Shown here: one piece after another, positions 13,668-37,976 of the stretch
How positions within the stretch are numbered: the first letter of the stretch is position 1
Layout: each line of letters starts with the position of its first letter
Assembly (NCBI RefSeq): GCF_039538065.1
Contig: NZ_BAABBR010000001.1
Location: 1,216,501-1,280,500, forward strand
Direction of reading: 5' to 3'
Length of the DNA stretch: 64,000 nucleotides
Source: Sphingomonas rosea
Lineage (GTDB): Bacteria > Pseudomonadota > Alphaproteobacteria > Sphingomonadales > Sphingomonadaceae
Program-made: the position numbers and the translations under genes
Notes under the pieces: generated by a model
What the model saw: the letters and a program-made list of their open reading frames with translations, nothing else
Databases searched by the model: none
Told to the model about the DNA's origin: nothing

Positions 13668-13670
13668 GCG

Positions 13671-14534
13671 TCAGCTCCGCCTGAAAATGGTGTTGGCGAC
13701 CTGGACGATCGGCAGGTCGTGGCCGGCGATCGTCTCCGAATGGCCGAGAAACAGCAGGCCGCCCGGCGCCAGCTGCTCGACCAGCTGGCCGACCACGCGC
13801 AGCTGCGTCTCGCGGTCGAAATAGATGAGGACGTTGCGGCAAAAGACGAGCTGCATCGGCTCGCCGACCGGATATTGCCCGTCCATCAGGTTGAGGCGCG
13901 CGAAGGCGACGTTGCGCCGCAGCGTCGGAGTGACGCGCACGACGTCGCGGTCGGGATCGGTCGAAGCCATGAGATAGCGCCGCCGCAATTCGGCGGGCAC
14001 CGGATCGACGAACTCGGCGGGATAGATGCCGGTGCGCGCGATCTCGAGCATGCTGGTGTCGAGGTCGGTCGCGAGCACCTTGTAATTCGCCGCGAGCCGG
14101 CCGCGCAGCCAGTCGTCGATCACCATCGCGATGGTGTAGGGCTCGGCCCCGTTCGAACAGGCGACACTCCACGCGCGGAGGTTCGTCACCCCCTGCGCCA
14201 GAAGCTCGGGCAGCGCGACGTCGCGTAGATAGTCGAAGTGATAGGGCTCGCGGAAGAAGTCGGTCTTGTTGGTCGTGACCGCGTTGATCAGATACTCGCT
14301 CTCGACCTCGATATTGTCCTCGTCGAAAAGATAGTCGCAATAGTCGTCGAGCGTTTCGGCCCCGACCGCGCGCTGGCGGCGGCGCAGCCGGCCCTCAAGC
14401 ATCGTCTGCTTGCTCGGCGGCATGCGGATGCCCGCGGTCTCGAAGATATATTTGGCGAGCGCGTTGAAATTCTGCCGGCCAATCCGGTCGGTCATCGGTG
14501 CGCCCGGATGCGGCGGGGGAACGAAATTCTTCAC
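13671..14534 (-). CDS. cheR: Chemotaxis protein methyltransferase CheR
   Basis: Methylates receptor glutamates using SAM. The N-terminal helical domain (ALAKYIFETAGIRMPPSKQ, then LEGRLRRRQR) is followed by TTNKTDFFREPYHFDYL, the SAM-binding AWSVACSNGAEPYTIAM segment, ATDLDTSMLEIARTGIYP and VFCRNVLIYFD, all standard CheR landmarks. The GTG at 14534 has GAGG seven bases upstream and gives 287 residues; the ATG at 14495 (274 residues) is the alternative and removes a Pro-rich leader. It sits between cheW and cheB in the operon. Confidence 0.95.
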   Translation of the reverse strand: MKNFVPPPHPGAPMTDRIGRQNFNALAKYIFETAGIRMPPSKQTMLEGRLRRRQRAVGAETLDDYCDYLFDEDNIEVESEYLINAVTTNKTDFFREPYHFDYLRDVALPELLAQGVTNLRAWSVACSNGAEPYTIAMVIDDWLRGRLAANYKVLATDLDTSMLEIARTGIYPAEFVDPVPAELRRRYLMASTDPDRDVVRVTPTLRRNVAFARLNLMDGQYPVGEPMQLVFCRNVLIYFDRETQLRVVGQLVEQLAPGGLLFLGHSETIAGHDLPIVQVANTIFRRS

Positions 14535-14580
14535 CTCTGAGCCTCGCTGGAAAGGGCGGCCCGCGCGGTCGCCGAAGCGG

Positions 14581-15060
14581 TCAGGCGGCGGTCGCCATGG
14601 ACGACAGTTCGGCCGCCTCGACGTCGGAGAAGATCCGGCCCATGTCGATGAACACGACGAACCCCTCGGCCCGCCTGGCCACGCCCGCGATATAGTCTGA
14701 CGCCCAGCGGGTCCCGACATCGGGTGCGGGGCCGATCTGCGCGGTGTCCACGGTACTGACGTCGAGCACCCGGTCGACCACGAGCCCGAGCGTCAGCACT
14801 CGCGCCCCGAGCGGCACGTCGACGACCAGGATCCGCGTGCTGAGGCTCGGCACCGCCGCCGGCATTCCCAGCCGCAGCCGCAGGTCGACCGTGGTCACGC
14901 CCTCGCCGCGAAGGTCGGTGAGGCCGAGCATGAAGCCGGGGCCGTTCGGGATCCGGAAGGGCTCGCGGTAATCGAGGATCTCGCGGACCAGGGTGACGGG
15001 GATCGCGAAAGTCTCGGCATCGAGCCCGAAGGTCACGACCTGCAGTTCGCCCCCGCTCAT
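14581..15060 (-). CDS. cheW: CheW coupling protein (distal copy)
   Basis: This 159-residue single CheW domain begins [14 protein letters not shown] and has [14 protein letters not shown] and [20 protein letters not shown], the conserved receptor/CheA interface. CheW links chemoreceptors to CheA kinase. The ATG overlaps the stop of the three-unit MCP (ATGA), suggesting that this CheW and that receptor are made together. A second CheW lies upstream at 19408-19917; the two are divergent, so they may favour different receptors. Confidence 0.95.
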
Positions 15061-17387
15061 GCCGCCTTGCTTTCGAAGTCGGCGTCCTGCGCATCGGGGC
15101 CGCCGTGCGCAAGATCGAGCGCGAAGCCGGTGATCCGGGCCTGCTGGTCGGCGACCGACGGGCCGCGGACCGTCCGCTTGACCTTGGCAGCGGCCTTCGC
15201 CGGACGCACCGGCCTCGCCTTGGGCGCGGCCTCGCGCCGCGGCTTGGTCGAGGCGGCGCTCGCCCCGGCGCCCCGGTCGTTGCCGAGCCGGAAGTAGGCG
15301 ATGCTCCCCTGCAGCTGTTCGGCCTGGCTGGCGAGCAGTTCGGACGTGGTCGAGATCTGCTCGGACGCGCCGGCATTCTGCTGGGTCACCTGGTCGAGCT
15401 GCTGGATCGCCTCGTTGATCTGCGAAGCGCCGATGTCCTGCTCGCGGCAGGCGGAGCTGATCTCGAGCACCAGTTCGGCGGTCCGGCGGATATCGGGCAC
15501 CAGCTTGGCCAGCATCTCGCCCGCGTCGGCCGCGGCCTTGAGCGTGTCGCCCGAGACCGAGCTGATCTCGGCCGCCGCGCTCTGACTGCGTTCGGCAAGC
15601 TTGCGGACTTCGGACGCGACCACCGCGAAGCCGCGGCCATGCTCGCCCGCCCGCGCGGCCTCGACCGCGGCGTTGAGCGCGAGAAGGTCGGTCTGGCGCG
15701 CAATTTCCTGCACGATGCTGATCTTCTCGGCGATCGTGCGCATTGCCTCCACCGCCTTTTCGACCGCCGCGCCGCTGGCCTCGGCATCGCGCGAGGACTG
15801 CCGCGCCATCTTCTCGGTCTGCGCGGCATTGTCGGCATTCTGCCGGATGTTCGCCGCCATCTGCTCCATCGAGGCCGAGGCTTCCTCGGTCGCCGCTGCC
15901 TGCTCGGTCGCGCCCTGCGAGACCTGCTCGGAGCTCGCCGACAGCTCCTGGCTGCCCGACGACACGCTGTCCGCCGCCGCGGTCGCATTGCCGACCACCT
16001 CGCGCAGCCGGTCGACCATCCGGGTGAGCGCGTGGCCCAACGTGTCATTGGCCGACAGCGGCTGGTGCTCGACCGTGAGGTCGCCGTCGGCGATCCGGTC
16101 GGCGAGATCGGCGCTGACCCGCAGGCTGTCGACCAGCGCGTTGATCGCGGTCTTCATCTTCTGGTGATCGCCCTCGCAGACGATCTCCACCCGTTCGGCG
16201 AGATCGCCGGTGCTGACCCGATCGAGGATCCGATTGCCTTCGACGATGGGGAGCAGGATCGCGTCGAGCATTCCGTTGATCCCCGCGACCAGCCTGGCGA
16301 AATCGCCGACGAACTTCTTGTCCTCGCCGCGTTCGGACAGGTGACCGGCGGTGGCGGCGTCGATCAGGCGCCCGATCTCGCCGGTGATGTCACGCAGGTT
16401 GCCGCGCAGCGTCTCGACGGTGTCGTTGATGAACGCCTTCTTGCCCGGGAACTGCTCGAGCGGGGCGTCGAAATTGCCTTCGCCAAACTCCTTGATGCAG
16501 GCCATGGCCTTCTTCTTCACCGCGATATGGGCGGCGACCATCTCGTTGACGCCCCGCGCCATGATCGCGAAGTCGCCTTGGAACTTCTCGGCGGGCACGA
16601 AGACGTCGATGTTGCCGCGGTCATGCTCGGCGGACATGTGCCGCATCTCGGCGATGATGCCCTTCAAATTCCCGCGGAGGGTCTCGATCGTCTCGTTGAT
16701 GAAAGCCTTCTTGCCGGGGAGCCGGGCCATCGGCGCCTCGAAATTGCCTTCGCCGAATTCCTTGACGCAGGCCATCGCCAGCTTCTTTACCGCGATGTGC
16801 GCCGCGACCATGTCGTTGACCCCGCGCGCGACGATCCCGAAGTCGCCCTTGAACTTCTCGACCGGCACGAAGACGTCGATGTCGCCCTTCTCGTGCTCGG
16901 CAGCCATGTGGCTCATCTCGGCGATGATGCCCTTCAAATTACCGCGAAGCGTCTCGATCGTGTCGTTGATGAAGGCCTTCTTGCCGGGAAGCTGGGGCAT
17001 CGGCGCTTCGAAATTCCCGTCGGCGAACTCGCGCACGCAGGCCATCGCCATCTTCTTCACCGCGATATGGGCCGCGACGAGCCCGTTGGTCTTTTCGGCA
17101 ATGGCGGCGAGGTCGCCGCGGAACCGCTGCACAGGGATGACGACATCGATGTCGCCCCGCTCATGCTCCGCCAGGACGTGATCGAGGCTGTCGCCAAGCG
17201 CGCTGACCGGGTCCAGCGCCTGCTCGAGCAGGTCATTGACCGCGACCAGCACCTCGCGGGTCCGGCCCTTGGCGAGCGACACGTCGGCGCGCTCCGAAAG
17301 GCGCCCGTCCGCGAGCGCGCGGCCGACCCGGGCCAGTTCGCCCGTGACGAGATCGGCGGATACCGTGTCGAAGAACCCAAGCGACAT
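15057..17387 (-). CDS. Soluble poly-HAMP chemoreceptor (three 90-residue units)
   Basis: A 776-residue methyl-accepting chemotaxis protein without membrane helices. Residues 1-105 are a helical leader; residues 106-375 are three tandem 90-residue units, each like a pair of HAMP domains ([40 protein letters not shown]). Further HAMP-like segments follow ([28 protein letters not shown]) before the signalling hairpin with [19 protein letters not shown] Lys/Pro/Ala-rich tail follows. No ligand-binding domain is apparent, so it may sense through the HAMP stack or a partner, as in soluble Aer2-like receptors. It is followed by cheW with a 4-bp overlap. Confidence 0.92.
16263..17072 (-). repeat. Three tandem 270-bp coding repeats (90-residue HAMP-pair units)
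   Basis: Residues 106-195, 196-285 and 286-375 of the receptor each start with AHIAVKK and share KKAFIN and ETLRGNL at fixed positions. The first two are nearly identical; the third diverges in its second half ([15 protein letters not shown]). The period is exactly 90 residues. Confidence 0.85.
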
Positions 17388-17435
17388 GATCCTGCTTCCT
17401 TGTGATGGGTCTGAAGAGAGTGAACGGTCCGGGGC

Positions 17436-19367
17436 TCAGGCCGCCTTTTCGAAGTCGGCATCCTCGGCGTCCGGGCCGCCCTGGCTGAGGTCGAGCGCGA
17501 AGCGGGTTACCCGCCCCTGCTGATCGGCGACGCCGCCGGGCTTGCTGCGAGCCTTCGCTCTGGGTTTCGGAGCTGCCTTCTTGACCGGAGCGGCGGTGCG
17601 GCGCGCAGGCTGGCCCGCGGCGACAACCTTGGCCGCGGCGACCGCGCCCTCCAGCTGGAAATAGCCAATGCTCGCCTGGAGTTCGCCCGCCTGCTGCGCC
17701 AGAAGCTCGGACGTGGTCGAAATCTGCTCGGACGCGCCGGCATTCTGCTGGGTTACCTGGTCGAGCTGCTGGATCGCCTCGTTGATCTGCGAAGCGCCGA
17801 TGTCCTGCTCGCGGCAGGCGGAGCTGATCTCGAGCACCAGTTCCGCGGTCCGGCGGATATCGGGCACCAGCTTGGCCAGCATTTCGCCCGCGTCGGCCGC
17901 GGCCTTCAGCGTGTCGCCCGAGACCGAGCTGATCTCGGCGGCCGCGCTCTGGCTGCGTTCGGCAAGCTTGCGGACTTCGGATGCCACCACCGCGAAGCCG
18001 CGGCCATGCTCGCCCGCCCGCGCCGCCTCGACCGCCGCGTTGAGCGCGAGGAGGTCGGTCTGGCGCGCAATCTCCTGCACGATGCTGATCTTCTCGGCGA
18101 TCGTGCGCATCGCCTGCACCGCCTTTTCGACCGCAACCCCGCTCGCCTCGGCGTCGCGGGCGGACTGGCGCGCCATCTTCTCGGTCTGGGCGGCGTTGTC
18201 GGCATTCTGGCGGATGTTGGCGGCCATCTCCTCCATCGAGGCCGAGGCCTGCTCGGTCGCCGCCGCCTGCTCGGTCGCGCCCTGCGAGACCTGCTCGGAG
18301 CTGCTCGACAGCTGCTGGCTTCCGGCCGACACGCTGTAGGAGGCGGCCGTCACGTCGCCGACCACCGACCTCAGGCTGTCGACCAGCGCGTTGACCGAAT
18401 CCTTCATCTTGGCATGGTCGCCGTCGCACTCGATCTCGACCCGTTCGGTCAGGTCACCGGTGCTGACCCGGTCAAGGACGCGATTGCCCTCGAGGATGGG
18501 AACCAGGATGGCGTCGAGCATCGCGTTGATGCCCGCCACGAGCTGCGCGAAATTGCCGACGAAGCGGCGGTCTTCGCCGCGTTCGGCAAGATTGCCCGCG
18601 GTTGCCGCGTCGATCAGCCGCCCGATCTCATGCGTGATGTCGCGCAGATTGCCGCGCAGCGTCTCGACAGTCTCGTTGATGAAGGCCTTCTTGCCCGGGA
18701 ACTGCTCGAGCGGCGCATCGAAATCGCCCTCGCCGAAGGCCTTCATGCAGGCCATGGCCTTCTTCTTCACCGCGATGTGCGCGGCGACCATCTCGTTGAT
18801 GCCGCGCGCGACGATCCCGAAATCGCCCTTGAACTTCTCGGCGGGCACGAAGACGTCGATATCGCCCTTCTCGTGCTCGGCGGCCATGTGGCGCATCTCG
18901 GCGATGATGCCCTTCAAGTTCCCGCGAAGCGTCTCGATCGTGTCGTTGATGAAGGCCTTCTTGCCCGGAAGCTGCTCCATCGGCGCCTCGAAATTGCCCT
19001 CGCTGAACTCCTTGATGCAGGCCATCGCCATCTTCTTGACCGCGATGTGGGCGGCGACGAGTTCGTTGGTCCGGCGGGCGATGACGGCGGCCTTGCCGGC
19101 GAACTGCTCGACCGGAACGACGACCTCGATGTCGCCGCGGGCATGCTCGTCGTGCACATGGGCAATCGCCACGTCGAGCGCGTCGATCGGTTGGACCGCG
19201 CGGTCGAGCAGCCGGTTCACGGCCGCGAGCAGCTCCTGGGTCGCGCGATTGGCGCCTTGGCCGTGGGCGCGCTCGGCTATGTCTCCACGCGCCATGGCTG
19301 CTTCCAGCCGGACGAGTTCCGCCTGGACGATGCCCGCATTCACGCCGCCAAACCATTCAAGTGACAT
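17436..19367 (-). CDS. Soluble poly-HAMP chemoreceptor (two 90-residue units)
   Basis: A 643-residue tandem paralogue of the downstream receptor. It has the same leader plan, two 90-residue units (residues 106-285), a HAMP-like [10 protein letters not shown] segment and an MCP signalling hairpin ([18 protein letters not shown]) almost identical in residues and bases to the neighbour. It lacks one repeat unit and the [14 protein letters not shown] segment present in the larger copy. No membrane helix. Both end in a similar acidic tail ([12 protein letters not shown] against [13 protein letters not shown]). It probably arose with its neighbour by tandem duplication and shares CheA/CheW. Confidence 0.92.
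18513..19052 (-). repeat. Two tandem 270-bp coding repeats (90-residue HAMP-pair units)
   Basis: Residues 106-195 and 196-285 of the second receptor, again starting at AHIAVKK, with the final unit ending in the divergent [11 protein letters not shown] form. They correspond to the first (or second) and last units of the neighbouring receptor. Confidence 0.85.
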
Positions 19368-19407
19368 CGTCTATCGCCTTTCGATGATGGTGCCGCGCAG
19401 CCTCTTC

Positions 19408-19917
19408 CTAGGCCGCCGCCGACAGGTCCGGGACGGCGTGGTTGCCGAGCAGCGGGTCGAAGATCGCGCCGAGATCGGGAAGGACGATCACGCCATCGTC
19501 GCGCCGGACCATCGCGCGCAGATAGTCGCGCCGCCAGCGCAGGCCGACCGCAGGCGCAGGCTCGCTCGCCTCGCGACGCAGGGTCGCGACCTCGTGCACC
19601 TTGTCGGTCCGGATCCCGATCTGGATCGCTCCGTTGCCCGTTGCGAGCTCGATCACCACGATCCGGCTGTCGACGGTCGGCTCGGTCGCCGGAAAGCCGA
19701 ACGCCGGTCGAAGGTCTGCGATGGGGATGATCTTGCCGCGGAAGTTGACCACGCTGCCGACCAGCGGGTTGGCGCCCGGCACGGCTGTCTCGGGCAGGAG
19801 GTCGAGGATCTCGCGCACCAGCACGGCCTCGACCGCGAAGGTCTCCGAATGGAGATCGAAGGTCAGGACCTCGAGCTCGCCCGCCGGTCCCCAGTTGATG
19901 TCGTTGGCTTGGTCCAT
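19408..19917 (-). CDS. cheW: CheW coupling protein (proximal copy)
   Basis: A 169-residue CheW domain: VLTFDLHSETFAVEAVLVREILD, then VVNFRGKIIPIADLRPAFGF and a C-terminal RDDGVIVLPDLGAIFD segment. It bridges CheA and receptors. It is 3 bp after cheA and about 40 bp before the two-unit MCP. It has a ten-residue N-terminal extension relative to the other CheW and differs at many interface positions. Confidence 0.95.
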   Translation of the reverse strand: MDQANDINWGPAGELEVLTFDLHSETFAVEAVLVREILDLLPETAVPGANPLVGSVVNFRGKIIPIADLRPAFGFPATEPTVDSRIVVIELATGNGAIQIGIRTDKVHEVATLRREASEPAPAVGLRWRRDYLRAMVRRDDGVIVLPDLGAIFDPLLGNHAVPDLSAAA

Positions 19918-19920
19918 GGG

Positions 19921-21888
19921 TCAGGCGACGGCGCGAAGCCGCTCCTCTTGCTGCTGGCCGAGGGCGAGAAGCTGGGCGACGTCGAGGATCAGCGCGACAT
20001 TGCCGTCCCCGAGGATCGTCGCCCCGGCGAAGATCGCGACGTCACTGTGAACCGGGCTCATCGGCTTGATCACCGTCTGGTGGCTGCCGATGATCTGGTC
20101 GACGACGAGGCCGATGCGGTCGGTGCCGGTCGAGATGATCACGATCTTCTGGTGCGGGTCGGGGGCGCTGTTGCCGCCGAACAATTCGCGCAGCCGCATG
20201 AACGGGACCAGTTGGTCGCGCAGGGTGATGAGGCTGCGCCCGCGCGAGCGCTGATCCTCCTCGGTGCTGAGCTCGATGCACTCCTCGACCGCCGACAGCG
20301 GAATGACATAGCGGGCGGCACCGACGCGGATCAGCAGCCCGTCGATAATCGCGAGCGTCAGCGGGATGCGCAGCGAGATGACCGAGCCTTCGCCCGCGCT
20401 GCTCGCAACGTCGATCGTGCCCCGCAGGCTCTCGATCGTCCGCTTGACCACGTCCATGCCGACCCCGCGCCCCGACAGGCTCGTCACCTGCTGCGCGGTC
20501 GAGAAGCCGGGATGGAAGATCATCTGCAGGAGTTCGTGATCGCTCGCCGCCTGGCCGGGTTGGAGGAGGCCCTGTGCCTCGGCCTTGGCACGGACCCGGC
20601 CGAGGTCGATCCCGCGCCCGTCGTCGCGGATTTCGATGATCACCTCTCCGCCCGCCTGCCTGGCCGACAGCCGGACCTCGCCGGTCGGCGCCTTGCCGGC
20701 GGCCGCGCGCTCGTCGGCGCTTTCCAGCCCATGGTCGCAGCTGTTGCGGATGAGGTGGATCATCGGATCCGCCAGCCGTTCCATTACCGTCTTGTCGACC
20801 TCGGTGGTCTCGCCTTCGGTGACGAGCTCGATCGCCTTGCCGGTGTCGCGCGCAAGGTCGTGGACCAGCCGGCGGAAGCGGCCGAACAGGCTTGAGACGG
20901 GCACCATCCGCAGCACCATCATCGTGTCGCGAAGTTCGCCCGCGAGCCGCTCGATGTCCTCGGAGATGGCATGCAGCGTCTGGTTGGCGGCGCCCGCCCC
21001 GCCCTGCGCGAGCTGCGACAGGCGGCTCTGGACGATGACCAGCTCGCCGACCCGGTCCATCAGGAGGTCGAGCCGCTCGGCCGGCACGCGGACGGTGTCG
21101 CTCGGCTTGCCGGCCGGTGCGCCCGCATCATTGGCGGGTCGCGGATCGTCGCCCGGGCGCGATGGCGCGGTGGGATCCTCGGCGGCGGCGACCGGCGCGT
21201 TCGCAGCGTCTCCGCCCAAGGGCTCGAGGCTCAGCTCCATTTCGTCCATCACGAAGATGAAGACGTCCTCGATGTCGGCGAGCGCGATGTCGCCGTGAAG
21301 CTCGACCTCCCAGCCGATGTGGCATTCGGTCGGCACCAGCTCGGCGAGCGGTGGAATGCGGTCGGTGAGCGCGGTGATCCGGCACTCACCCAGCGCCCGC
21401 AATTCGTCGAGCAGGATGAGCGGGTTGGTGCCGTTCGCCATCGCATCGACCGGAAGCCGGAAGACCAGCCGCCATCCGGCCTCCGCCGCCTGCGCCGGAG
21501 CGCCGCCCGCCGGAGCTTCCTCGAGGACGACCCGCAGGCGTTCGAGGATCGCATCCCCGGCTGCGCCGCCTTCCCCGCTCTGGTCGGTGAGCAAGGTCCG
21601 CATATGGTCCTGCGCCGCAAGCACCACCGCGACCAGGTCGCGGGTCGCGGGCACCTGCCGCTTGCGGACCCGGTCGAACGCCGTCTCGCAATGGTGGGTG
21701 AAGCCGGCAAGCGCATCGAAGCCGAACATCGCCCCCGAGCCCTTGAGCGTGTGCAGCCCGCGGAAGACCGCGTCGATCAGGTCGCGATCGTCGAGCCGAT
21801 GATCGAGATCGAGCAACGCCTGCTCGACCTGGTCGAGGAGCTCGTTCGCCTCGGTCAGGAAGGCGGCGATGGGATCGTTTGCGCTCAC
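19921..21888 (-). CDS. cheA: Chemotaxis histidine kinase CheA
   Basis: A 655-residue kinase with the expected order: P1 phosphotransfer domain with His46 in RGLHTLKGSGAMFG, a degenerate P2-like region (about 140-250), P3 dimerisation, P4 ATPase with the N-box HLIRNSCDHGLE, DDGRGID and GRGVGMDVV, and a C-terminal CheW-like P5. The GTG at 21888 overlaps the cheY stop (GTGA) and gives the natural P1 start; the upstream frame is antisense to nothing useful. It phosphorylates CheY and CheB in response to receptor state. Confidence 0.97.
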   Translation of the reverse strand: MSANDPIAAFLTEANELLDQVEQALLDLDHRLDDRDLIDAVFRGLHTLKGSGAMFGFDALAGFTHHCETAFDRVRKRQVPATRDLVAVVLAAQDHMRTLLTDQSGEGGAAGDAILERLRVVLEEAPAGGAPAQAAEAGWRLVFRLPVDAMANGTNPLILLDELRALGECRITALTDRIPPLAELVPTECHIGWEVELHGDIALADIEDVFIFVMDEMELSLEPLGGDAANAPVAAAEDPTAPSRPGDDPRPANDAGAPAGKPSDTVRVPAERLDLLMDRVGELVIVQSRLSQLAQGGAGAANQTLHAISEDIERLAGELRDTMMVLRMVPVSSLFGRFRRLVHDLARDTGKAIELVTEGETTEVDKTVMERLADPMIHLIRNSCDHGLESADERAAAGKAPTGEVRLSARQAGGEVIIEIRDDGRGIDLGRVRAKAEAQGLLQPGQAASDHELLQMIFHPGFSTAQQVTSLSGRGVGMDVVKRTIESLRGTIDVASSAGEGSVISLRIPLTLAIIDGLLIRVGAARYVIPLSAVEECIELSTEEDQRSRGRSLITLRDQLVPFMRLRELFGGNSAPDPHQKIVIISTGTDRIGLVVDQIIGSHQTVIKPMSPVHSDVAIFAGATILGDGNVALILDVAQLLALGQQQEERLRAVA

Positions 21889-22253
21889 CGGCCCAGCACC
21901 TTGCGCGCGACCCGGATCAGCTGGTCGGCGACGAACGGCTTGACCAGCCAGCCCGTCGCGCCTGCGGCCTTGGCCTCCTGCTTCATCGCATCGGCGCTCT
22001 CGGTGGTCAGGAAGATGATCGGCGTCCCGCATTGCGCGGGATCGCGGCGCAGCTCGCGGATCATCGTCAGCCCGTCCATGTTGGGCATGTTCTGGTCGGT
22101 GATGATCAGGTCGAATCGGGTCGCGCGCGACTTGTTGAGCCCGTCGAGCCCGTCGCTCGCCTCGGTGACGCTGTAGCCTGCGCCCGTCAGCGCCAGCTTG
22201 ATCGCCATCCGCAGGCTCGGCGAATCGTCGACGGTGAGGATCGAGGCGCTCAT
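21885..22253 (-). CDS. cheY: CheY-type single-domain response regulator
   Basis: 122 residues with Asp9/Asp10, the phospho-acceptor Asp53 in ITDQNMPNMDG, a LTTES switch segment and Lys104 in VKPF. CheY-P binds the flagellar motor switch. The ATG overlaps the stop of the STAS gene (ATGA), and its stop overlaps cheA, so STAS, CheY and CheA are coupled. An ATG at 22271 is possible but would extend into the STAS gene. Confidence 0.95.
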   Translation of the reverse strand: MSASILTVDDSPSLRMAIKLALTGAGYSVTEASDGLDGLNKSRATRFDLIITDQNMPNMDGLTMIRELRRDPAQCGTPIIFLTTESADAMKQEAKAAGATGWLVKPFVADQLIRVARKVLGR

Positions 22254-22546
22254 TGCGCGGCTCCGGCGCACCAGAAGTCGCGGTCGGCGTCGATGAAGCC
22301 GGCGCGGACCAGCAGGCCCTCCACCGTCTCCGGCACCGCCGATCCCAGCCGCAACTGCTTGCCCTGCTCGGCGGCATGGACCCGCGCCGCGGTCACGATC
22401 TGGAGGAAGCTCAGATCGAGTTCGCCCACCTCCGCGAGGTCGAGTGCGACCTCGTCATACTGCGCCAGCGCGTCGCCGACCGCGTCCGCGAACGCCCCCG
22501 CGGTCACGACCGTCACCGAAGCCGGTACCTTCACAACCTTCGTCAC
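22250..22546 (-). CDS. STAS-domain protein, first gene of the chemotaxis operon
   Basis: This 98-residue protein starts at a GTG with GAGGGA a few bases upstream; the larger frame to 23611 is antisense to moaA. The core VALDLAEVGELDLSFLQIV is the STAS (anti-sigma antagonist-like) fold, with Ser in the loop where SpoIIAA-type proteins are phosphorylated. STAS genes head che operons in several alphaproteobacteria; the role is not settled. It could be a partner-switch input or a scaffold. Confidence 0.85.
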   Translation of the reverse strand: MTKVVKVPASVTVVTAGAFADAVGDALAQYDEVALDLAEVGELDLSFLQIVTAARVHAAEQGKQLRLGSAVPETVEGLLVRAGFIDADRDFWCAGAAQ

Positions 22547-27357: not shown

Positions 27358-28275
27358 TTAGCGAATGTAATTCACCAGGCTGAGGTTCGAGAGCCGGCTG
27401 AACAACGTGTAGCTCGCCTGCAGGCTCGACTGGCGCTGCACCAAAGTGCTCGCCACCTCGGCCATGTCGGCATCCTCGTTGCGCGCGACCAGCCGCTGAA
27501 GGATCAGCGAGCGTTCGCTCGCCCGGTCGGCGAGTTCCTCGACCTGCGCCTGGCGCCGGCCGTTCTCGGCATGCGACGCGCGCAGGGTCTTCAAACCGTC
27601 GTTGATCTTGCCCACCGCCTCGTTGATCGCGGCCTGCTGCGCCGCGGTCGGGACGTCGCCGATCGCCCCCGCATCGGCCAGCGCCCGGAAGGCCTCGAAC
27701 ATCTCCGACCCGAAGCTGCTCGCGGTCGCGCCGAACGAGACGTCGAGCCCGTCGGCCACCCGCGCCTTCAATTCCACCCCGTCGTTGGCAAAGGCACTTG
27801 CGGTCGGCACCCCCGCGCTCGCCGCGAGGCTCGCCGGAACGAACGGTGCCGTGTCGGTCCGCGACCCCGCGAACAGATACGTCCCGCCCTCGTCGCTGTT
27901 GAGCGCCGAGCGGAAGCGCTGGAACGTCTCTTCCGCCAGCTCCTGCAACCCCTCCGAACGCTTGCTCGCCGAGGTCGTCAGCAGCTTGTCGCGGAACGAG
28001 ACCATCATGTCCTCGATGCTCGCCATCTGCGTGTCCATGATCGATAAGGTCGTGCCGATCCTGGCCCCCACCGCCGCATGCGCTTCCTGCCGCGCGAGCA
28101 GGGTCCGCGCCGACAGGTTGCGCATCGTCTCGATTCCGAGCGAAGCGAAGTCGGGCGCCTTCTTGCCGGTCGCCATCTGCTGTTGGGTCTCGACCAGCTT
28201 GCGCTGCGAAATGGCGATCGACTCGAACAGCGTCCGCTGCATCGGCACCGTCGCGACCCTGTTCCATCCGGTCAT
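27358..28275 (-). CDS. flgL: Flagellar hook-filament junction protein FlgL
   Basis: 305 residues. The N-terminal QRTLFESIAISQRKLVETQQ coiled region and the C-terminal SLQASYTLFSRLSNLSLVNYI are flagellin-like terminal helices as in FlgL (HAP3). It joins FlgK to the filament. The start overlaps the flgK stop by one base. The context flgE-flgK-flgL fixes the assignment. Confidence 0.93.
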   Translation of the reverse strand: MTGWNRVATVPMQRTLFESIAISQRKLVETQQQMATGKKAPDFASLGIETMRNLSARTLLARQEAHAAVGARIGTTLSIMDTQMASIEDMMVSFRDKLLTTSASKRSEGLQELAEETFQRFRSALNSDEGGTYLFAGSRTDTAPFVPASLAASAGVPTASAFANDGVELKARVADGLDVSFGATASSFGSEMFEAFRALADAGAIGDVPTAAQQAAINEAVGKINDGLKTLRASHAENGRRQAQVEELADRASERSLILQRLVARNEDADMAEVASTLVQRQSSLQASYTLFSRLSNLSLVNYIR

Positions 28276-30365
28276 CAGCGCACCATCCCGATCAGCGTGT
28301 CGTACATCTGCGTCGCCGTGGTCATCACCCGCGCCGCGGCCGAATAGCTGTTCTGGAGGGTGACGAGGCTCGCCAGTTCCTCGTCGATATTGACCCCCGA
28401 ATAGCTGTCGCGGCGGTTGACCGCGTCGGCCTTGCGCGCCTCCATGTCGGCGACCCGGTCCTTGGCCCCCGACGCGTCGAGGCCCGCCTGGCCGAGCACG
28501 AAGCTCGCGAAGCTCTCCATTCCCGAGATCCGCCCGCGCCCGAGGTCCACCGCCGCGCGAAGCTGGTCGACGAAAGCATTGGCGCCGCGGCTGTCGCCGG
28601 TGCCGACCGCCCTGGTCCCGACCGCCGCGGCAATGTCGAGCCGGGCGAGCGGGAGCCGCTTGGCGCTCGCCGCCATGTCGGGCCGCACCTCCGCCCCGCC
28701 GAGCCCCGTCTCCATCCCCGAGGGCAGGAGTAGGGAGGTCAGCGAACGGCCGGTGCCATAACGATCGGAGGTATCGGTCACGACCCCGAGGCTCGCGGTC
28801 GGAAGCGAGGCGACCGGCGTGAAGGCGAGCCGCCCGCGCGCATCGAGCGAGGCCGTCCCGAAGGCCGCCAGCGGTCCCGCGTTCAAGTCCGCCACGATGT
28901 CGCCGAAGGTCCCGCCGGCGACCGGATTGACCGTTGCCTGCGCCAGCACCCGCCCGTCGGGGCCGCGCAGGACAAATTGGGCGCTGGTGCCCGTGGCCAC
29001 CCCGTGCGGATCGGCAGCGGTGAAGCCGGCGGGTCCGAAGGTGCGCCCGCCGCTGACGAGGTCGTTGAGCCCGAACGCCTGCCCGAAGCCGAGCCCGGCG
29101 CGATCACTCGGGCTCGCCGGGTCCTGCGCCACCGCGACTCCCAGCCCGCCGTTTCCGACGATGCTGAGCTTGCCGCCGGTGAAACTCGCGGTGGCGAGCC
29201 CGCCGAGCCCGGCGTTGATCGCGTTGACCGCATCCTGGATCGTCGCCCCGGGCCCCAGCGCCGCGAAGTCGAGCGTCACCTTCCCCGCGAGCGTCCCGTC
29301 GGGTTGCAAAGCCGCGACCACCGCCCTGCCGGTGAAACCCAGCCGGTCGGACGCCGCGAAGCCCGTCTGCGCCCCCTCGAGCGAGTTTGGCGCGGGCACC
29401 GTGGTCCCGGCATTGCTCACCGCATTGAGGCTTTCGGCCAGCCCGCCGAACAGGCTCCCGATCTCCTCCGCGAAGGCGGGCAGTCGCCGGTCGCGCAATT
29501 CCATCAGCCCGCCCAGCCGGCCGCCGACGGCGGGCGTGTCGAGCCGCTCGCCCGTGTCGGCGCCGAGGCTTCCGTCGGCTTCGGCGAAGCGGACCCGGAC
29601 CGCGGGATAGATGGGCTGGACGCTGCCGTCGCTCGGCGGATAGTCGAGCAGCCGGAGCCGCCGGTCGAGCAGGGTCACTCCGCCCGCCGTGTCGATCGTC
29701 AGCCGCCCGTCGGCGCCCTCGCGGACCTCGACCTTGATCAGCCCCGACAGTTCCTCGACCGCGCTCATCCGCTGGTCGGTCGCGCCATTGGCCGCCCGCC
29801 CGCCCGCCGCCTGCCGCGCGACCGCGTCGTTCAACCGGTCGATCCGCTGGAGCAACGTGTTGATCGTATCGACCGTGTAGCTGAACTCGCGCTCGGCATC
29901 GACGCGCAGGCCCGCGACGTCGCTGTCGAGCGTCTGGAGCGAGGACAGCGCCTGCTGGACCGAGCCGACGAAGCCGCGCACCGTCGGCTCGCTCGCCGCG
30001 CCGCCGGTCATCGCCACCGCCGCCGCCCCGATCGCGTCGAGCCGCGCCGGAAGTCCGCCAGAGTCTCCCGGCGCGCCGAGCAAGGCCTGAAGCCGGTCGA
30101 GCGTATTCGCCACCGCCTCGGCCTGTCCCCATTCGCCGGCGCGGCGATAGACCGTCGCCTCGAGGAAGCGGTCGGCGACCCGCACCGCTTCCTGCGCGCG
30201 CACCCCCGTCACCTGCCCCGCGGTCACGCCCGTCTGAAGCGGCACGCGCTCGCGGGCGTAGCCGGGCGTGTTGACGTTGGCGATGTTGTTCGAGGCCGAG
30301 CGCAAGCCCGCCTGGGCGGCGTTCAGCCCCGACAGGGCGCTCCCGAGGATCTGCGACAGGCTCAT
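28275..30365 (-). CDS. flgK: Flagellar hook-associated protein FlgK
   Basis: 696 residues. The N-terminus has GSALSGLNAAQAGLRSASNN then NVNTPGYARERV, the axial-protein motif; the end has the SLVTLQNSYSAAARVMTTAT helix. The middle is a variable Gly/Ala/Asp-rich domain, longer than in E. coli (547 residues). It forms the first hook-filament junction ring. It is 10 bp after flgE. Confidence 0.94.
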   Translation of the reverse strand: MSLSQILGSALSGLNAAQAGLRSASNNIANVNTPGYARERVPLQTGVTAGQVTGVRAQEAVRVADRFLEATVYRRAGEWGQAEAVANTLDRLQALLGAPGDSGGLPARLDAIGAAAVAMTGGAASEPTVRGFVGSVQQALSSLQTLDSDVAGLRVDAEREFSYTVDTINTLLQRIDRLNDAVARQAAGGRAANGATDQRMSAVEELSGLIKVEVREGADGRLTIDTAGGVTLLDRRLRLLDYPPSDGSVQPIYPAVRVRFAEADGSLGADTGERLDTPAVGGRLGGLMELRDRRLPAFAEEIGSLFGGLAESLNAVSNAGTTVPAPNSLEGAQTGFAASDRLGFTGRAVVAALQPDGTLAGKVTLDFAALGPGATIQDAVNAINAGLGGLATASFTGGKLSIVGNGGLGVAVAQDPASPSDRAGLGFGQAFGLNDLVSGGRTFGPAGFTAADPHGVATGTSAQFVLRGPDGRVLAQATVNPVAGGTFGDIVADLNAGPLAAFGTASLDARGRLAFTPVASLPTASLGVVTDTSDRYGTGRSLTSLLLPSGMETGLGGAEVRPDMAASAKRLPLARLDIAAAVGTRAVGTGDSRGANAFVDQLRAAVDLGRGRISGMESFASFVLGQAGLDASGAKDRVADMEARKADAVNRRDSYSGVNIDEELASLVTLQNSYSAAARVMTTATQMYDTLIGMVR

Positions 30366-30375
30366 GCGTCAGTCG

Positions 30376-31677
30376 CTACCGCTTCAGGTTCGACAGTTCC
30401 TGCAGCATGTCGTCGACCGTGGTGATGATCTTCGAGGACGCGCTGTAGGCCCGCTGGAAGCGGATCATGTTGGTGAATTCCTGGGCGAGGTCGACGTTCG
30501 AGGCCTCGAGGGTCGAGCCCGAGATCATTCCCGCGCCGAGCGCGCCCGGCGGATTGATTGCGACCGATCCGCTGGCGCTCGACACCGCAAACGCATTGCC
30601 GGTGAGCCGGGTCAGCCCGTCGGGATTCTGGAAGGTCGCGATCGGCAGCTGATAGACCTTGCGCGCGGTGCCGTCGTCGAACACCGCGCTGACCACGCCC
30701 TTGTCGTCGACCTCGATGCTCGCGATGTTGCCGAGCAGCCCGCCATCGACGCTCGAGCTGATCAGCGCGCTCTGCCCGCCGAACTGGGTCAGGCCGTCGA
30801 GCCCCCCGTCGGTGCCGAGCTGGAGATCGATCGGCTGCGAACCCGCGCCATTGGTCCAGGCCGGCGTCACCGAGCCGAACAGCGCCGCGGTCGAACCGGC
30901 GAGGTCGAGGCTTCCGTCGGGATTGAACGCCACCGTCCCGCTCGTCAGCAGGCCGCCGGCCGCGGTCACGTCGCTCGCCGGCACCGCGAAGATCTCGGCC
31001 TGCCACTGGTTGGGCGCGGTCTTGAGGAAGCCCACGCTGATCCGGTGCGCGCCGCCCTGCGCGTCATAGATGTCGAAGCTGCGCTGGAACTGCGGGGTGA
31101 CCGTCCCCGCCGCCAGGTCGCCCGCCGCATAAGCGCCGGTATAGGCCGCCGCGTCCGACTGGAGGTTGGCGCGCATCTGGAGCTTGCTGGTCGGCGCCGC
31201 CGAACCCGTCAGCTCGCTCAGCCGGACCGGCTCGAGCGCGTTCAGGTTGCCCGTGTCGACGAAATTGCCCGCCGCATCGAGCCGCCAGCCCTGGAGATAA
31301 TAGCCGCTCGTGTTGCGCAGGAACCCCTGGAGGTCGGGCTTGAACGCGCCCGCCCGGGTGAACGCCACCTCGGCATCCGGCCCGTCGCCCGAGCGCACCA
31401 CGAAGAAGCCCGCCCCGTCGATCGCGAGGTCGGTCTGGCTCGAGCTCGCCTGGAGCAGCCCCTGCTTGCTGATCAGCGCCTGCGGGGCCGCCGCGACGCC
31501 GCCCGCCGAATAGCTCGACCGCATCCGCCCGTCGGTGACGAGGGTCCGGAACTCGGTCGCCACCCCCTTGTAGCCGATGGTGTTGATGTTGGTGATGTTG
31601 TCCGCGACCGTCGCCATGGCGGACGATTGCGCACCGAGGCCGGACACGCCGGCATAAAGGGCGGAATAAAGGCTCAA
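30376..31677 (-). CDS. flgE: Flagellar hook protein FlgE
   Basis: 433 residues starting at TTG: the conserved MSLYSALYAGVSGLGAQS start fits, and GAGGAG is about ten bases upstream. NITNINTIGYKGVATEF, LAIDGAGFFVV and the C-terminal FTNMIRFQRAYSASSKII are hook/rod landmarks. It is the first gene of the minus-strand flgE-flgK-flgL operon and divergent from flbT. Confidence 0.94.
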   Translation of the reverse strand: MSLYSALYAGVSGLGAQSSAMATVADNITNINTIGYKGVATEFRTLVTDGRMRSSYSAGGVAAAPQALISKQGLLQASSSQTDLAIDGAGFFVVRSGDGPDAEVAFTRAGAFKPDLQGFLRNTSGYYLQGWRLDAAGNFVDTGNLNALEPVRLSELTGSAAPTSKLQMRANLQSDAAAYTGAYAAGDLAAGTVTPQFQRSFDIYDAQGGAHRISVGFLKTAPNQWQAEIFAVPASDVTAAGGLLTSGTVAFNPDGSLDLAGSTAALFGSVTPAWTNGAGSQPIDLQLGTDGGLDGLTQFGGQSALISSSVDGGLLGNIASIEVDDKGVVSAVFDDGTARKVYQLPIATFQNPDGLTRLTGNAFAVSSASGSVAINPPGALGAGMISGSTLEASNVDLAQEFTNMIRFQRAYSASSKIITTVDDMLQELSNLKR

Positions 31678-31776: not shown

Positions 31777-31842
31777 CCCCGCCCCGTCTCGCCCTCCGCT
31801 GCCTCTAAGGTGGACGGGACCAGACCAGCTTGGGAGACCACA

Positions 31843-32256
31843 TTGACCCTCCGCATTTCCCTTCGCGACGGCGAGCGTGTCGTCATCAACGGCGCGATCA
31901 TCCGCTCCTCGGGCCGGACCGACCTCGCGATCGAAAGCAAGGTGACGATCCTGCGCGGCCGCGAGATCATGGCCCCGGCCGAAGCCAACACCCCGGCCCG
32001 GGCGCTCTATTTCCACACCATGATGGCCTATCTCGACCCCGAACGGATCGAGGAGCATCACCGCCAGATCCTCGGCCTCCTTGGCGGCGTCTCGCGCCTC
32101 TCGACCTGCGAGACCGGCCGCGCCGCGGTCGCCTCCTTCGCCGAGCGCGCGGCGAGTGCCGATTATTATCGCGCGCTCGGCGACTGCCGGACGCTGATGC
32201 GGCTCGAGCATGACGCGCTCGCCGGGGTGGCGGAGGTCGCGGAGCTCGCGGCCTGA
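31843..32256 (+). CDS. flbT: Flagellar biosynthesis repressor FlbT
   Basis: 137 residues starting at a TTG with GGGAG eight bases upstream; the GTG at 31810 is less likely. TLRISLRDGERVVINGAIIR is the family's opening, followed by KVTILRGREIM and a helical C-terminus. In Caulobacter FlbT binds the flagellin mRNA leader and represses its translation until the hook is complete. The usual partner flaF is not in this window. The stop overlaps the apparent start of fliI. Confidence 0.93.
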   Translation: MTLRISLRDGERVVINGAIIRSSGRTDLAIESKVTILRGREIMAPAEANTPARALYFHTMMAYLDPERIEEHHRQILGLLGGVSRLSTCETGRAAVASFAERAASADYYRALGDCRTLMRLEHDALAGVAEVAELAA

Positions 32257-33588
32257 GCGCCGTCCAGAGCCTCGCCGCGCTGAGCGCCGCGATCCGCGCG
32301 ACCGATCCGGTCCGCCGGTTCGGTCGCCTTCGCCGGGTCCAGGGCGCGGCGCTCGAAGTCGGCGGCCTCGGCGGCGCGGCCAGCGTCGGCGCCCGCCTGC
32401 GCATTTCCAGCGCGACCGGCGAAGTCGAGGCCGAAGTCACCGCCCTGAACGGCGAGGCAGTCACCGCGCTCGCCTTCGATCCGACCGACTGCCTCGTCGC
32501 GGGCGATCCGGCCGAGCTCGTCGCCGGTCAGTCGGCGCTGCACCCGTCCGACGCCTGGCTCGGCCGGGTCGTCGACGGCCTCGGCCGCCCGCTCGACGGC
32601 AAGGGCGCGCTCCGCCCCGGCACCGCGCCTGCTTCGCTTCGCGCCTTCCCGCCGCCCGCCGCCCGCCGCGCCCGCGTCGGCCGCCGGATCGACACCGGCG
32701 TTCGCGCGCTCGACCTCTTCGCCCCGCTCTGCGAGGGCCAGCGGCTTGGCCTGTTCGCCGGCTCGGGCGTCGGCAAGTCGGTGCTGCTCTCGATGCTCGC
32801 GCGCTGGGCCGATTGCGACGTCGCGGTGATCGGGCTGATCGGCGAGCGGCCGCGAGGTGCAGGAATTCATCGAGGACGACCTCGGTCCGGAGGGGCTCGC
32901 CCGCTCGGTCGTGGTCGTTGCCACTTCCGACGCGCCCGCCCTTCTCCGCCGCCAGGCCGCGCTCGCGACCCTCGCCATCGCCGAGCATTTTCGTGATGCC
33001 GGCAAGCGCGTCCTCTGCCTGATGGATTCGGTCACCCGCTTCGCCATGGCCGGGCGCGAGATCGGCCTCGTCTCGGGCGAGCCCCCCGCGACGCGCGGCT
33101 ACCCGCCCTCGGTCTTCGCCGACCTGCCCCGCCTGCTCGAGCGCGCGGGCCCCGGCCTTCCCGGCCAGGGCAGCATCACCGGCCTGTTCACGGTCCTCGT
33201 CGACGGCGACGACCATGACGAACCGATCGCCGACGCCGTGCGCGGGATCCTCGATGGCCACGTCGTCCTCAGCCGGAGCATCGCCGAGCGCGGCCGCTAT
33301 CCCGCGATGGATCTGCTGAAGTCGGTCAGCCGGACTCTCCCCCACTGCCTCGACCCGGAGGACAACCGGACCCGACTCGAAGCCCGGCGAATCCTCTCGA
33401 CCTGGGCCGACATGGAGGAGCTTGTGCGCCTCGGCGCCTATGCTCCCGGCGCCAGTCCCGAAGTCGACCGCGCCATCGCGCTTGCCCCGCTGGTCGAGGG
33501 CCTGGTCGCGCAGGGCAAGGAGGATCGCGGTCGATCGTCCGCCGCCTTTGCCGACCTCGCCAACATCCTTGCCGAGCCCGAACCATGA
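32253..33588 (+). pseudogene. fliI: fliI, flagellar export ATPase, disrupted by a 2-base frameshift and lacking a standard start
   Basis: The N-terminal part (32253 to about 32849) reads as FliI with the Walker A segment GLFAGSGVGKSVLL; the C-terminal part (32851-33588) reads in another frame with EFIEDDLG, the Walker B region [11 protein letters not shown] and [15 protein letters not shown]. The join falls at bases GAGCGGCCGCGAG, where GERGREVQEF needs two more bases; without them translation stops at 32996 after about 247 codons. Restoring two bases gives 445 residues, the family's normal length. No ATG, GTG or TTG opens the N-terminal frame; the best candidate is CTG at 32253 in a CTGA overlap with flbT. 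All catalytic motifs are otherwise intact, so the damage is recent or a sequence error. Confidence 0.85.
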
Positions 33589-33986
33589 GCCGCCTCGGCC
33601 CCGCCATCCGTCACCGCAAGCGGATGCTCGACCAGGTCGCGATGGAAATCGCCGCCGAGCAGGCGCGCGATGGCGCGCTGCTCACGAAGGGGGAAACCCT
33701 AACTGCGAGGCGCGCCTGCGAACGCCTCCGCGCCGCGGTCACGCCAGTGCCGAGCGACGCCTGGTTCGAGAACACCCGCCGCCGCCTCGGCGCCCTCGCC
33801 GCCGCGCGCGCCGAATCCGCATCGCGCCTCGCCGAGCTTCGCCACGTCGCGGTCGAGCAGCGTGCGCGCCTCCGCCTGCTCGAGGACGCCGCCGCCGCCG
33901 CCCACGCGGCCGATCGCCGCCGGCGCGAACGCACGATTGCCGCGCAGCTCGACGATCGAACCGCCAGCCTGTGGCACCGCGCATGA
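33585..33986 (+). CDS. fliJ: FliJ-like flagellar export chaperone
   Basis: 133 residues, almost entirely alpha-helical and rich in Arg/Ala/Glu, with long heptad-like stretches (about 10-125) as in FliJ, the coiled-coil stalk that fits into the FliI hexamer. Primary sequence conservation of FliJ is low; the call rests on size, helicity and its position after fliI, whose stop it overlaps (ATGA). Confidence 0.75.
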
Positions 33987-34879
33987 CCGGCGACATCGGC
34001 CGCCTCGCCCCTGCCGCCCGCGCCGAACTCATCTACCGCTCGGCCCGCGCCGGGCTCGAGGACCGCCTGTGGCAGATCGCCATCGGCCGCGCCGATGCGG
34101 GGGTGGAGACCGCTGCCGAGCCCGCTTCGCCACGCCTGCTCGACCTGTCGAAACTCGTCGACGCGCTTGCCGCCGACGACCGCTTCGCGCCCCAACTCAC
34201 GCCAGGCCCCGTCCCGAGCCCCACCAACACCGGACCGCTCAACCTCGGCGCCAACGCCACCTTCGCCCCCGCCATCGAAGCCGCCGCCGCGCGTACCGGC
34301 CTCGCGCCCGCGATGCTCGCCGCGATCGTCGACGCCGAGGCCGGCCGCGCCGCCGACGGGCGCTGGGACCCGGGGAGCCGCAATCCGCGCTCCACCGCCA
34401 CCGGCCTCGGCCAATTCCTCCAGTCGACCTGGCTCGGCGAGGCCCGCCGCGAGGGAAGCTGGCTCCACGCCGTCGCGACCGAGCGCGGCTGGCTCGGCCC
34501 GTCGGGCGCGATCCGCCCCGAAGCCCAGGCCGCGCTCCTCGCGCTGCGCACCGATCCCGCGGCCTCGATCAACGCCGTCGCCGACCATGCCGCCGCCAAT
34601 CTCGCACGGCTGCGGTCGGCCGGAATCCGGACCGACGACCTCGCGTCGACCGCCAAGGCCGCCTATCTCGCCCACCATCTCGGTCTCGGCGACGCCATGC
34701 GATACCTCGGCCGCGGCCTCGACGACGCGCGCGCCGGTCGCCTCCTCGCCGCGCAGGTCGGATCGGCCGCCGCCGCGCGCCGGATCGAGGCCGCCGCCAG
34801 CGCCAGCCAGGCCCATCGCAACTGGCTCGAAACCTATGTCGCGCGGCGTATCCAGCCCGCGCGTTTCCAGACCGCCTGA
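33983..34879 (+). CDS. Lytic transglycosylase-like protein of the flagellar cluster
   Basis: 298 residues. After a 90-residue N-terminal region and a Pro/Asn linker, a SLT-like domain (about 105-160) has AIVDAEAGRAADG with the likely catalytic Glu and TATGLGQFLQSTW, matching the GLMQ segment of the family. The rest is helical. Transglycosylases open peptidoglycan for the flagellar rod; here it may replace the FlgJ muramidase domain. No signal peptide is seen, so it may leave by the flagellar export apparatus. It overlaps fliJ by 4 bp. Confidence 0.75.
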   Translation: MTGDIGRLAPAARAELIYRSARAGLEDRLWQIAIGRADAGVETAAEPASPRLLDLSKLVDALAADDRFAPQLTPGPVPSPTNTGPLNLGANATFAPAIEAAAARTGLAPAMLAAIVDAEAGRAADGRWDPGSRNPRSTATGLGQFLQSTWLGEARREGSWLHAVATERGWLGPSGAIRPEAQAALLALRTDPAASINAVADHAAANLARLRSAGIRTDDLASTAKAAYLAHHLGLGDAMRYLGRGLDDARAGRLLAAQVGSAAAARRIEAAASASQAHRNWLETYVARRIQPARFQTA

Positions 34880-35061: not shown

Positions 35062-36060
35062 ATGTCGAAAACCACTGCGGCACTCGAAGTTGCCGTTGCC
35101 GAACTCATCGCGATCAAGGGCAGCGGCGAGGCGCCGCTCAGCGCGCGCCAGCGCCGCGACATCGACCGCGTCTTCGTCCGGCTCCAGCGCCTCCTCGCCC
35201 CGCGCTTCCGGCACTTCATTCGCCAATATGGCCTGGGCAACCACTGGGACGATGCCGAGCAGTGCTGCGCCATCGCGGTGCACCGCGCGATCGAGGCCTA
35301 TGATCCGGAAAAGGCCCAGTTCACCACCTTCGTCAACTGGCAGATCCGCGGCGAACTCCAGTCGCTCCGCTTTCGCCTGATGACCGACCAGCGCCCCTCG
35401 GCGCAGAAGGTCTCGGCCACCACCGTCTCGCTCCACAGCATCTCGCACGACGCCGACGGCGAGGAGAATTCGCTCGAGGCGATGATCGAGGACGAGGACG
35501 CGCTGGAGCGGACCGAGCGTTCGGCCAGCGACTATCTCGCCCGCGCCGCCGCCCAGTGCCTGATCGAGGAATTCGTGCAGAAGGGCCGCCACGCCGCGCT
35601 CGACGCGCTGCGCCGCAAGCAGCCCAAGCGCGAGCTCGCCCGCCAGCTCAAGGCCGGTGGCCGCGCCGGGCTCGACGAGGAAGCCGTGGCGAGCATCGAG
35701 GCGCGGCTCGAGCGCGACCGCGAGATCCTCTCGGCCCGCGTGTTCGGCGAACTCGCCGACTATGACGCGCCCGAGGGCAGCGGCCTCAACCGCGAGCAGG
35801 TCCGCCAGATCGGCAAGCGCGCCGCCAAGGTCATGGCCGAGCTCGCCGAGGTGCATCCGCGCTTCCGCGTCATGGCCGATTACGGGCCCACGGTGGCCAG
35901 CCGTCGCAGCCGCACGGCAGCCGCCCCGGCAGCCGCATCGCTCCTCCCCGAGCCCGCCGCCGCCCCGACCGCGGTGGTCGCGCTCGACGACATCGACGAG
36001 GCCGCGCCCTTCACCCCCAGCAACGTCCTCCCCCTCCACCCCGATCAGCGCGCCGCCTGA
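35062..36060 (+). CDS. Divergent sigma-70-family factor in the flagellar region
   Basis: 332 residues. A region-2-like segment (about 45-110) has DDAEQCCAIAVHRAIEAYDP and FTTFVNWQIRGELQSLRFR, as in the core-binding and -10 helices. A region-4.2-like helix-turn-helix (about 225-270) has DREILSARVF and GLNREQVRQIGKRAAKVM. The C-terminal 60 residues are a low-complexity Ala/Pro tail. A GGGGGA site precedes the ATG. It resembles the RpoH/FliA-sized group more than ECF factors but is not clearly any named sigma. Its place beside flagellar and chemoreceptor genes suggests control of motility genes, by inference. Confidence 0.7.
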   Translation: MSKTTAALEVAVAELIAIKGSGEAPLSARQRRDIDRVFVRLQRLLAPRFRHFIRQYGLGNHWDDAEQCCAIAVHRAIEAYDPEKAQFTTFVNWQIRGELQSLRFRLMTDQRPSAQKVSATTVSLHSISHDADGEENSLEAMIEDEDALERTERSASDYLARAAAQCLIEEFVQKGRHAALDALRRKQPKRELARQLKAGGRAGLDEEAVASIEARLERDREILSARVFGELADYDAPEGSGLNREQVRQIGKRAAKVMAELAEVHPRFRVMADYGPTVASRRSRTAAAPAAASLLPEPAAAPTAVVALDDIDEAAPFTPSNVLPLHPDQRAA

Positions 36061-37670: not shown

Positions 37671-37976
37671 TTCGCTTCTCCCCCGAGCCGGCCGGCATCA
37701 GCCCCGACGGGCCACTCCCCACGAACAGTTGCAGCCATCTGACTTCCTCTCTCGATCCTGCGCGTCGGCGCCACGCGCGCGCTTCCCGTTCGCCGGGCGC
37801 GGCGCCGCTCCCTTGCCTTGTAGAGGGCTGTGGCGCTCCACCGGCGCGAAGCCGGCGATCGAATGGGCCGGCCCGCTGACGCCAACGCCGGGCCTGCACA
37901 GAAAGCGCTGTCCTACAGCAAACCTCTTTGGTTATCTTTATTCGACTCGGACCAGCCCATTCCAAGGATTGACCTC
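37671..37976. other. 306-bp divergent intergenic region, chemoreceptor / lysis genes
   Basis: No convincing gene is seen. It must hold promoters for the receptor (minus) and the endolysin (plus). A small inverted repeat GCTGT-CCT-ACAGC lies at 37907-37919, about 58 bp before the endolysin ATG, and an AT-richer stretch (CTTTGGTTATCTTTATTC) follows it. These could be an operator and promoter; no consensus was matched. Confidence 0.45.

Follow-up and report, generated by a model that had tools for sequence, protein, structure and literature searches.

A frameshifted fliI with a conserved CTG as its probable start in a Sphingomonas rosea flagellar locus whose assembly lacks core flagellar families

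The fliI gene of Sphingomonas rosea is split between two reading frames in the assembled sequence, and on balance we lean towards reading it as a gene that broke recently within a remnant flagellar locus, that is normally started at CTG and whose lesion is tolerated without the flagellar core. The gene lies in a window of 64,000 nucleotides (positions 1216501-1280500 of the genome G000, which is assembled as one contig of 2,675,604 bases with a completeness of 99.96). According to the proposed explanation, fliI would normally be translated from the conserved CTG, probably by termination-reinitiation from flbT, as suggested by the CTGA stop/start overlap and the Shine-Dalgarno-like stretch upstream. 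In G000, two bases would have been lost from the GERGREV block, parting the Walker A motif from the remaining ATPase, so that neither piece alone would be a working export ATPase. The lesion could be tolerable because the assembly offers no export gate, MS ring or switch for FliI, the core presumably having been lost first. The features of the gene and its upstream neighbour are as follows:

31810..32256, + strand: flbT (GTG ORF); its stop TGA at 32254-32256 overlaps the fliI start; NF001995/NF009432 matches below cut-off
32229..32252, + strand: GGAGG and GGAG within the flbT 3' end, resembling a Shine-Dalgarno sequence
32253..32256, + strand: CTGA overlap of the fliI CTG and the flbT TGA, at the same position in G000, G021, G020, G011, G017 and G070
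32253..32996, + strand: first fliI piece, with the N-terminal domain and Walker A motif and a tail of about 50 codons out of frame before the stop
32844..32856, + strand: fliI junction in the GERGREV block, two bases short against intact relatives
32857..33588, + strand: second fliI piece, remaining nucleotide-binding domain and C-terminal domain

The sequence-only reading had placed fliI in two frames over 32253..33588, and the frame break is confirmed in the assembled sequence. The first frame runs from CTG 32253 to the stop at 32994-32996 (247 codons, about 197 of them FliI-like and the remainder out of frame) and carries the Walker A motif GSGVGKS at residue 170. FliI likeness of the second frame begins at 32848, its first standard start is GTG 32857, and 243 codons lead from there to a stop ending at 33588. 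In the Pfam search, PF00006 was divided between the frames (1-54 in the first piece, 56-213 in the second), and PF18269 was matched by the second piece only. For either piece the top NCBIfam family was TIGR03498 (FliI_clade3), matched over 1-176 by the first piece (182.4 bits) and over 182-418 by the second (371.2 bits), both below the curated cut-off of 587.45. The Walker A motif and the remaining nucleotide-binding domain, which FliI requires in one chain, are found in two. Codon-position composition was of the coding type in both frames (GC3 0.91 and 0.87, GC2 lowest), indicating one fliI gene and not a chance overlap. The length of 445 residues given earlier for the repaired protein agrees with the arithmetic over both frames, and the two-base shortage described for the GERGREV block was also borne out. 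In the whole G000 genome, no match exceeded the cut-off of the FliI/YscN family TIGR01026; three further weaker matches elsewhere look like ATP synthase and Rho-type proteins by our own reading, and this profile search revealed no second flagellar-type FliI.

The second fliI piece was searched against 71 genomes of the genus. A fliI of this type (at least 74% identity) was found in seven of them (G000, G021, G020, G011, G017, G070 and G087), and FliI-like proteins of 44-48% identity occurred in four others. All six congeners besides G000 carry GERGREV or GERGREL within one open frame, so the comparison of sister genomes that had been suggested from the sequence alone placed the lesion in G000 only. 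Across 109 loci from near and far relatives, some of which are the same place met twice, the frame was open through GER[GS]RE[VA] in 100; the nine without a match to this pattern were L111-L115 (via matches of 55-59 bp), L046, L068, L072 and L095. The short junction was absent from every relative examined. As far as the genomes read can tell, the two-base lesion is private to G000, and the gene has the marks of a frameshifted pseudogene, namely unbroken orthologues in its close relatives and none within G000 itself. The flbT gene is located directly upstream of fliI in the congeners too.

The CTG within the CTGA overlap is kept in six of the seven genomes with this fliI, and the most distant one, G087, has an ATG without overlap. 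The distance from the CTG to GERGREV is 196 codons in five genomes and 192 in G020. Upstream of the CTG, four of the six genomes have no in-frame ATG, GTG or TTG, and in G011 and G017 an ATG lies within flbT, 20 codons before the CTG; no alternative in-frame start was common to all six. It had been claimed that the N-terminal frame of G000 contains no standard start, which holds for the first 176 codons, and GTG 32781, ATG 32793 and GTG 32826 are present deeper inside. These lie around or after Walker A and cannot be the gene start. The exact start of flbT itself is uncertain, its homology beginning near 31843.

A putative ribosome-binding sequence is located upstream of the conserved CTG. Anti-Shine-Dalgarno complementarity was scored on the 20 nt upstream of the CTG, with 1000 random sites of the window as background. 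The duplex energies (kcal/mol) were -6.3 in G000, -3.8 in G021 (weak), -11.8 in G020, -9.5 in G011, -7.9 in G017 and -9.5 in G070. The six-genome mean was -8.1 versus -3.0 for the background and none of 20,000 random sets of six was as low, but the stretch also encodes the FlbT end and its conservation is therefore not independent. CTG 32253 is thus probably a conserved non-canonical fliI start, and by its conservation such a start would be ordinary within the lineage and unusual in general. The sequence-only reading had counted the start codon as a second anomaly of the gene and had itself held that a CTG kept in relatives would remove it; with the codon kept in six of seven genomes, this anomaly falls away.

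Bacterial initiation at CTG is already known. Among the matches listed for CTG/CUG starts in the bacterial literature, several titles name such starts and none resembles this case. The available part of one study describes the -4 nt overlaps ATGA and GTGA as the commonest arrangement for termination-reinitiation and non-canonical starts as only rarely used (PMC10666635). The fliI arrangement shares with these the 4-nt stop/start overlap and a Shine-Dalgarno-like stretch upstream, but its start is CTG, whereas ATGA and GTGA are the -4 nt overlaps named in that part of the paper. Another study counts AUG, GUG and UUG as canonical and describes complexes on CUG as less stable (PMC11497404). The conserved CTG may offer a clean natural test of whether reinitiation from an overlapping stop can support a normally poor start codon.

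The predicted loss of flagella, which the sequence-only reading had ascribed to the fliI lesion, does not depend on fliI, because FlhA, FliP, FliF and FliG were not found in the G000 assembly and flagellin was met there as a C-terminal fragment only. Whole-genome family searches, all absences in which refer to unmasked assembly sequence only, found no FlhA, FliP, FliF or FliG C-domain in G000 and its five sisters G021, G011, G017, G020 and G070 (one contig each, completeness 99 to 100). All four families were found in G087, and each search was positive in four of 14 control genomes. Since neither FlhA nor FliP, the export-gate partners expected in the same genome as fliI, was found in the assembly, FliI would have no gate to serve, with its gene intact or broken. 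The family Flg_bb_rod was present in 16 of the 71 genomes of the genus, with two matches each in G000 (flgE and flgK), G011, G017 and G020, four in G021 and G070 and six in G087. Flagellin_N was strong in G021, G070 and G087 only among the seven genomes; G000 had one weak match, just over the cut-off, in flgL.

A second cluster is kept in G070 and, by protein comparison, likewise in G021 (L202, L203), with an N-terminally cut flgD, fliL, flgF, flgG, flgH and a full flagellin, kept without FlhA, FliP, FliF and FliG. Partial flagellar sets together with loss of motility are described in the available part of a previous study, which also gives FliI matches for nearly all proteomes, motile or not (PMC12199754). 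G000 resembles those cases in having some flagellar genes and no complete motor, but differs in also keeping constrained hook and junction genes and in having deletion endpoints common to several species. A fliH-fliI deletion was studied in a flhB(P28T) background (PMC4905995), so export may not depend on FliI in every setting.

The flagellar and chemotaxis genes retained around fliI are as follows:

12582..22377, - strand: chemotaxis cluster with cheB, cheR, two MCPs, cheW, cheA and cheY
27361..28278, - strand: flgL (hook-filament junction), intact; NCBIfam FlgL/flagellin matches all below cut-off; orthologues in congeners
28278..30365, - strand: flgK, intact; TIGR02492 over cut-off
30376..31677, - strand: flgE (hook), intact; NF004242 over cut-off
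33585..33986, + strand: fliJ-like ORF, fast evolving, named by position alone, no family match
33983..34879, + strand: ORF without Pfam match, overlapping the fliJ-like ORF by ATGA
35062..36060, + strand: sigma-70 region-2 protein, flagellar sigma-like by position; PF04542 23.8 against a cut-off of 24; conserved in congeners

The chemotaxis set that the earlier reading expected to be kept is present in the window. At 15060-19367, two chemoreceptors with several HAMP-type domains are encoded in this genome without flagellar core genes. At 37830-39011, endolysin-like (Glyco_hydro_108) and gene-transfer-agent holin-like genes adjoin the flagellar genes.

Most of the remaining flagellar genes appeared to be constrained. 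The median pN/pS among the six genomes was 0.256 for flgE, 0.251 for flgK, 0.370 for flgL, 0.270 for flbT, 0.356 and 0.223 for the first and second fliI pieces, 0.303 for the sigma factor and 0.692 for the fliJ-like ORF. Nine genes of the window outside the flagellar set, four of them compared in three genomes only, ranged from 0.152 to 0.513 (0.152 for an hslU-like gene, 0.257 for secD). For most flagellar genes the values are therefore those of functioning genes, evidence against the function as a whole having been lost long ago. Between the sisters G011 and G070, flgE showed a dN of 0.028 and a dS of 0.39. For the first fliI piece, pN/pS was 0.356-0.599 in the five pairs with G000 and 0.111-0.442 in the ten pairs without it, the higher values being partly due to lower dS; a slight relaxation on the G000 side is possible. 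The second piece showed no surplus of amino-acid replacements in G000 (dN to G020 0.131 vs 0.144 for G021), and the evidence on relaxed constraint is mixed.

The core region of G087 was used as a DNA query, with scores computed for 40 of the roughly 300-360 first-look candidates in each genome, so that weak remnants could escape. No FlhA or FliF was among the 40 scored, and flgD was located directly against the end of flagellin in G000, G011, G020 and G017. Base-level reading showed that G000, G021, G011, G017, G020 and G070 all have flgD cut at one and the same position. The cut flgD is joined to flagellin at an identical junction position in G000, G011, G020 and G017, and to a gene start just after fliL in G021 and G070; this start looks like fliM, judging from the gene after fliL in G087. 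A tree of four non-flagellar genes (4221 nt) grouped G011 with G070 (100%), then G017 (100) and G020 (96), with G000 and G021 remaining, and the flagellar tree agreed on G011 and G070. These two sisters differ in scar type, therefore the two scar types do not follow descent. Over 55 flagellin codons, 0-3.5 nonsynonymous versus 6-16 synonymous differences separated the six genomes, and in the four scar genomes this remnant had a dN of 0.008-0.029 vs a dS of 0.20-0.58. The flgD remnant was less constrained (pN/pS 0.31-0.55). The flgD without its N-terminus and the last 62 or so flagellin codons stand head to head at L224:9500-10750 (G000, outside the window), L225, L226 and L227.

The frequency of frame breaks in the assembly was examined with a codon-usage HMM, run on the window, on an adjacent 200 kb and on 400 kb across the genome (664 kb in total, one stretch with a masked run). 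In the 603,918 bp classed as coding, the only genuine in-gene frame switch was that of fliI, which indicates that indels are not widespread in the assembly. The boundary at CTG 32253 was forced by the flbT stop and was not counted as evidence. Of the simulated one- or two-base deletions, 167 of 202 were detected where the gene end was 150 nt or more away, and 30 of 98 where it was closer, under a hit rule somewhat looser than that of the screen. Short-sided shifts escape this screen, and one such shift in flgL of G017 went unreported. This gene has its own independent frameshift near the N-terminus (L161, G017:C1:1102001-1122000), flagged by three of five query sets. An apparent biotin-dependent carboxylase gene of G021 is frameshifted next to a run of C (L173:9700-11701; CPSase_L_D2 1-126 and 132-209). 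Two of the three frame breaks met are in flagellar genes, the compared regions having been chosen around them.

Two other ways of counting frameshifts were tried. Synteny with G021 over the 200 kb adjoining the window matched only 2 to 3 ORFs and was dropped. An unfiltered tblastn split screen gave many splits in ORFs without coding-like composition, and a composition filter was used instead. In the unfiltered screen, queries from G021 and G017 picked up the fliI split; under the filter only those from G021 did, not those from G011, G070, G020 and G017. The G017 ORF at 44285-44770 was flagged as split in four sisters and is read as two genes joined in G017.

The earlier suggestion that the break is either a mutation or a sequence error holds as framed, with raw reads being what separates the two, and a true two-base mutation is only slightly ahead of a consensus error. 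It is quite possible that the gap exists only in the assembly and that the cellular fliI is intact. The gap is private to one genome, fliI has no further lesion and its second piece is still constrained, all of which would be expected from such an error, and the carboxylase gene of the sister G021 is unlikely to be dead, suggesting that isolated errors of the consensus are possible in assemblies of this set. However, the HMM found no second in-gene switch at the sensitivity given above, and the junction lies in a CG tract and not in a homopolymer. Nor is the pattern GCGCGGCCGCG depleted genome-wide in G000 (44 forward and 41 reverse occurrences; 21-34 forward and 18-25 reverse in the five sisters), and 34 CGCGGCCGCG sites in the 684 kb of sequence searched indicate that the junction context is not systematically collapsed. 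Programmed ribosomal frameshifting, by which a single FliI would be made from the two frames, would agree with both halves being open and the second being constrained; it is very improbable, as the six intact congeners read straight through and neither a conserved shift site nor the short junction was found in any relative examined. A recently broken copy of fliI is favoured by the domain split, the intact congeners and the open frame at most other loci, the core families not found, the unique HMM switch, the junction pattern not being depleted, the independent flgL frameshift in G017, the conserved CTG and the second piece without surplus replacements in G000. It is opposed by the lone carboxylase frameshift of G021, the mixed evidence on relaxation, the constraint on the remaining flagellar genes and the published fliH-fliI deletion.

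The constraint on the remaining flagellar genes is a poor fit with a long-dead system, and a true fliI lesion would be costly if core genes exist elsewhere. A complete flagellum in the cell, with the core cluster carried by a replicon or an excised circle that the one-contig assemblies do not contain, is doubtful, and would not exclude the other explanations. It would account for the constraint on flgE, flgK, flbT, fliI and the 55-codon flagellin remnant, and flagellar systems on large plasmids are present within the Sphingomonadales in Sphingobium sp. V4 and Erythrobacter aureus. Plasmid-mediated motility in Marinovum is reportedly the subject of one paper (PMC12843797), which we also count on this side. 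However, both plasmid examples carry fliI on the replicon of flhA, the six assemblies consist of one contig each at the completeness given above, no such replicon was found for G000 in the unmasked sequence searched, and the flgD remnant is less constrained. The identical ends, the conflict with phylogeny and the preserved flagellin end may be explained by an excision that can be reversed, by a replicon missing from the assembly or by a remnant put to new use, none of which we prefer. A preserved flagellin end is expected if the pieces rejoin at times, or if a mini-flagellin of 62 codons has its own job. That the core was removed in this lineage by recurrent, site-specific and perhaps reversible DNA excision seems improbable; if it were true, the broken fliI would be a lesion gathered while the system was off.

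The fliI lesion by itself is an ordinary private frameshift, and the residual flagellar genes with their common scars are the most interesting part, beyond fliI itself. Hook, junction and ATPase genes without a basal body, together with common deletion endpoints, would if real point to a flagellum switched by DNA excision, or alternatively to flagellar parts reused without a type III gate. Flagellar pieces were also met elsewhere in the genus (L229, L230, L231): G009 has fliR and flhB, G003 has flgG, flgH and flagellin near a contig end, and G092 has flgI, flhB and fliR near a contig end. In G064, where Flg_bb_rod was found once, the locus L228:8733-11318 encodes an FlgG 83% identical to that of G070, an FlgH 62% identical, and a 188-codon gene with an FlgF-like end.
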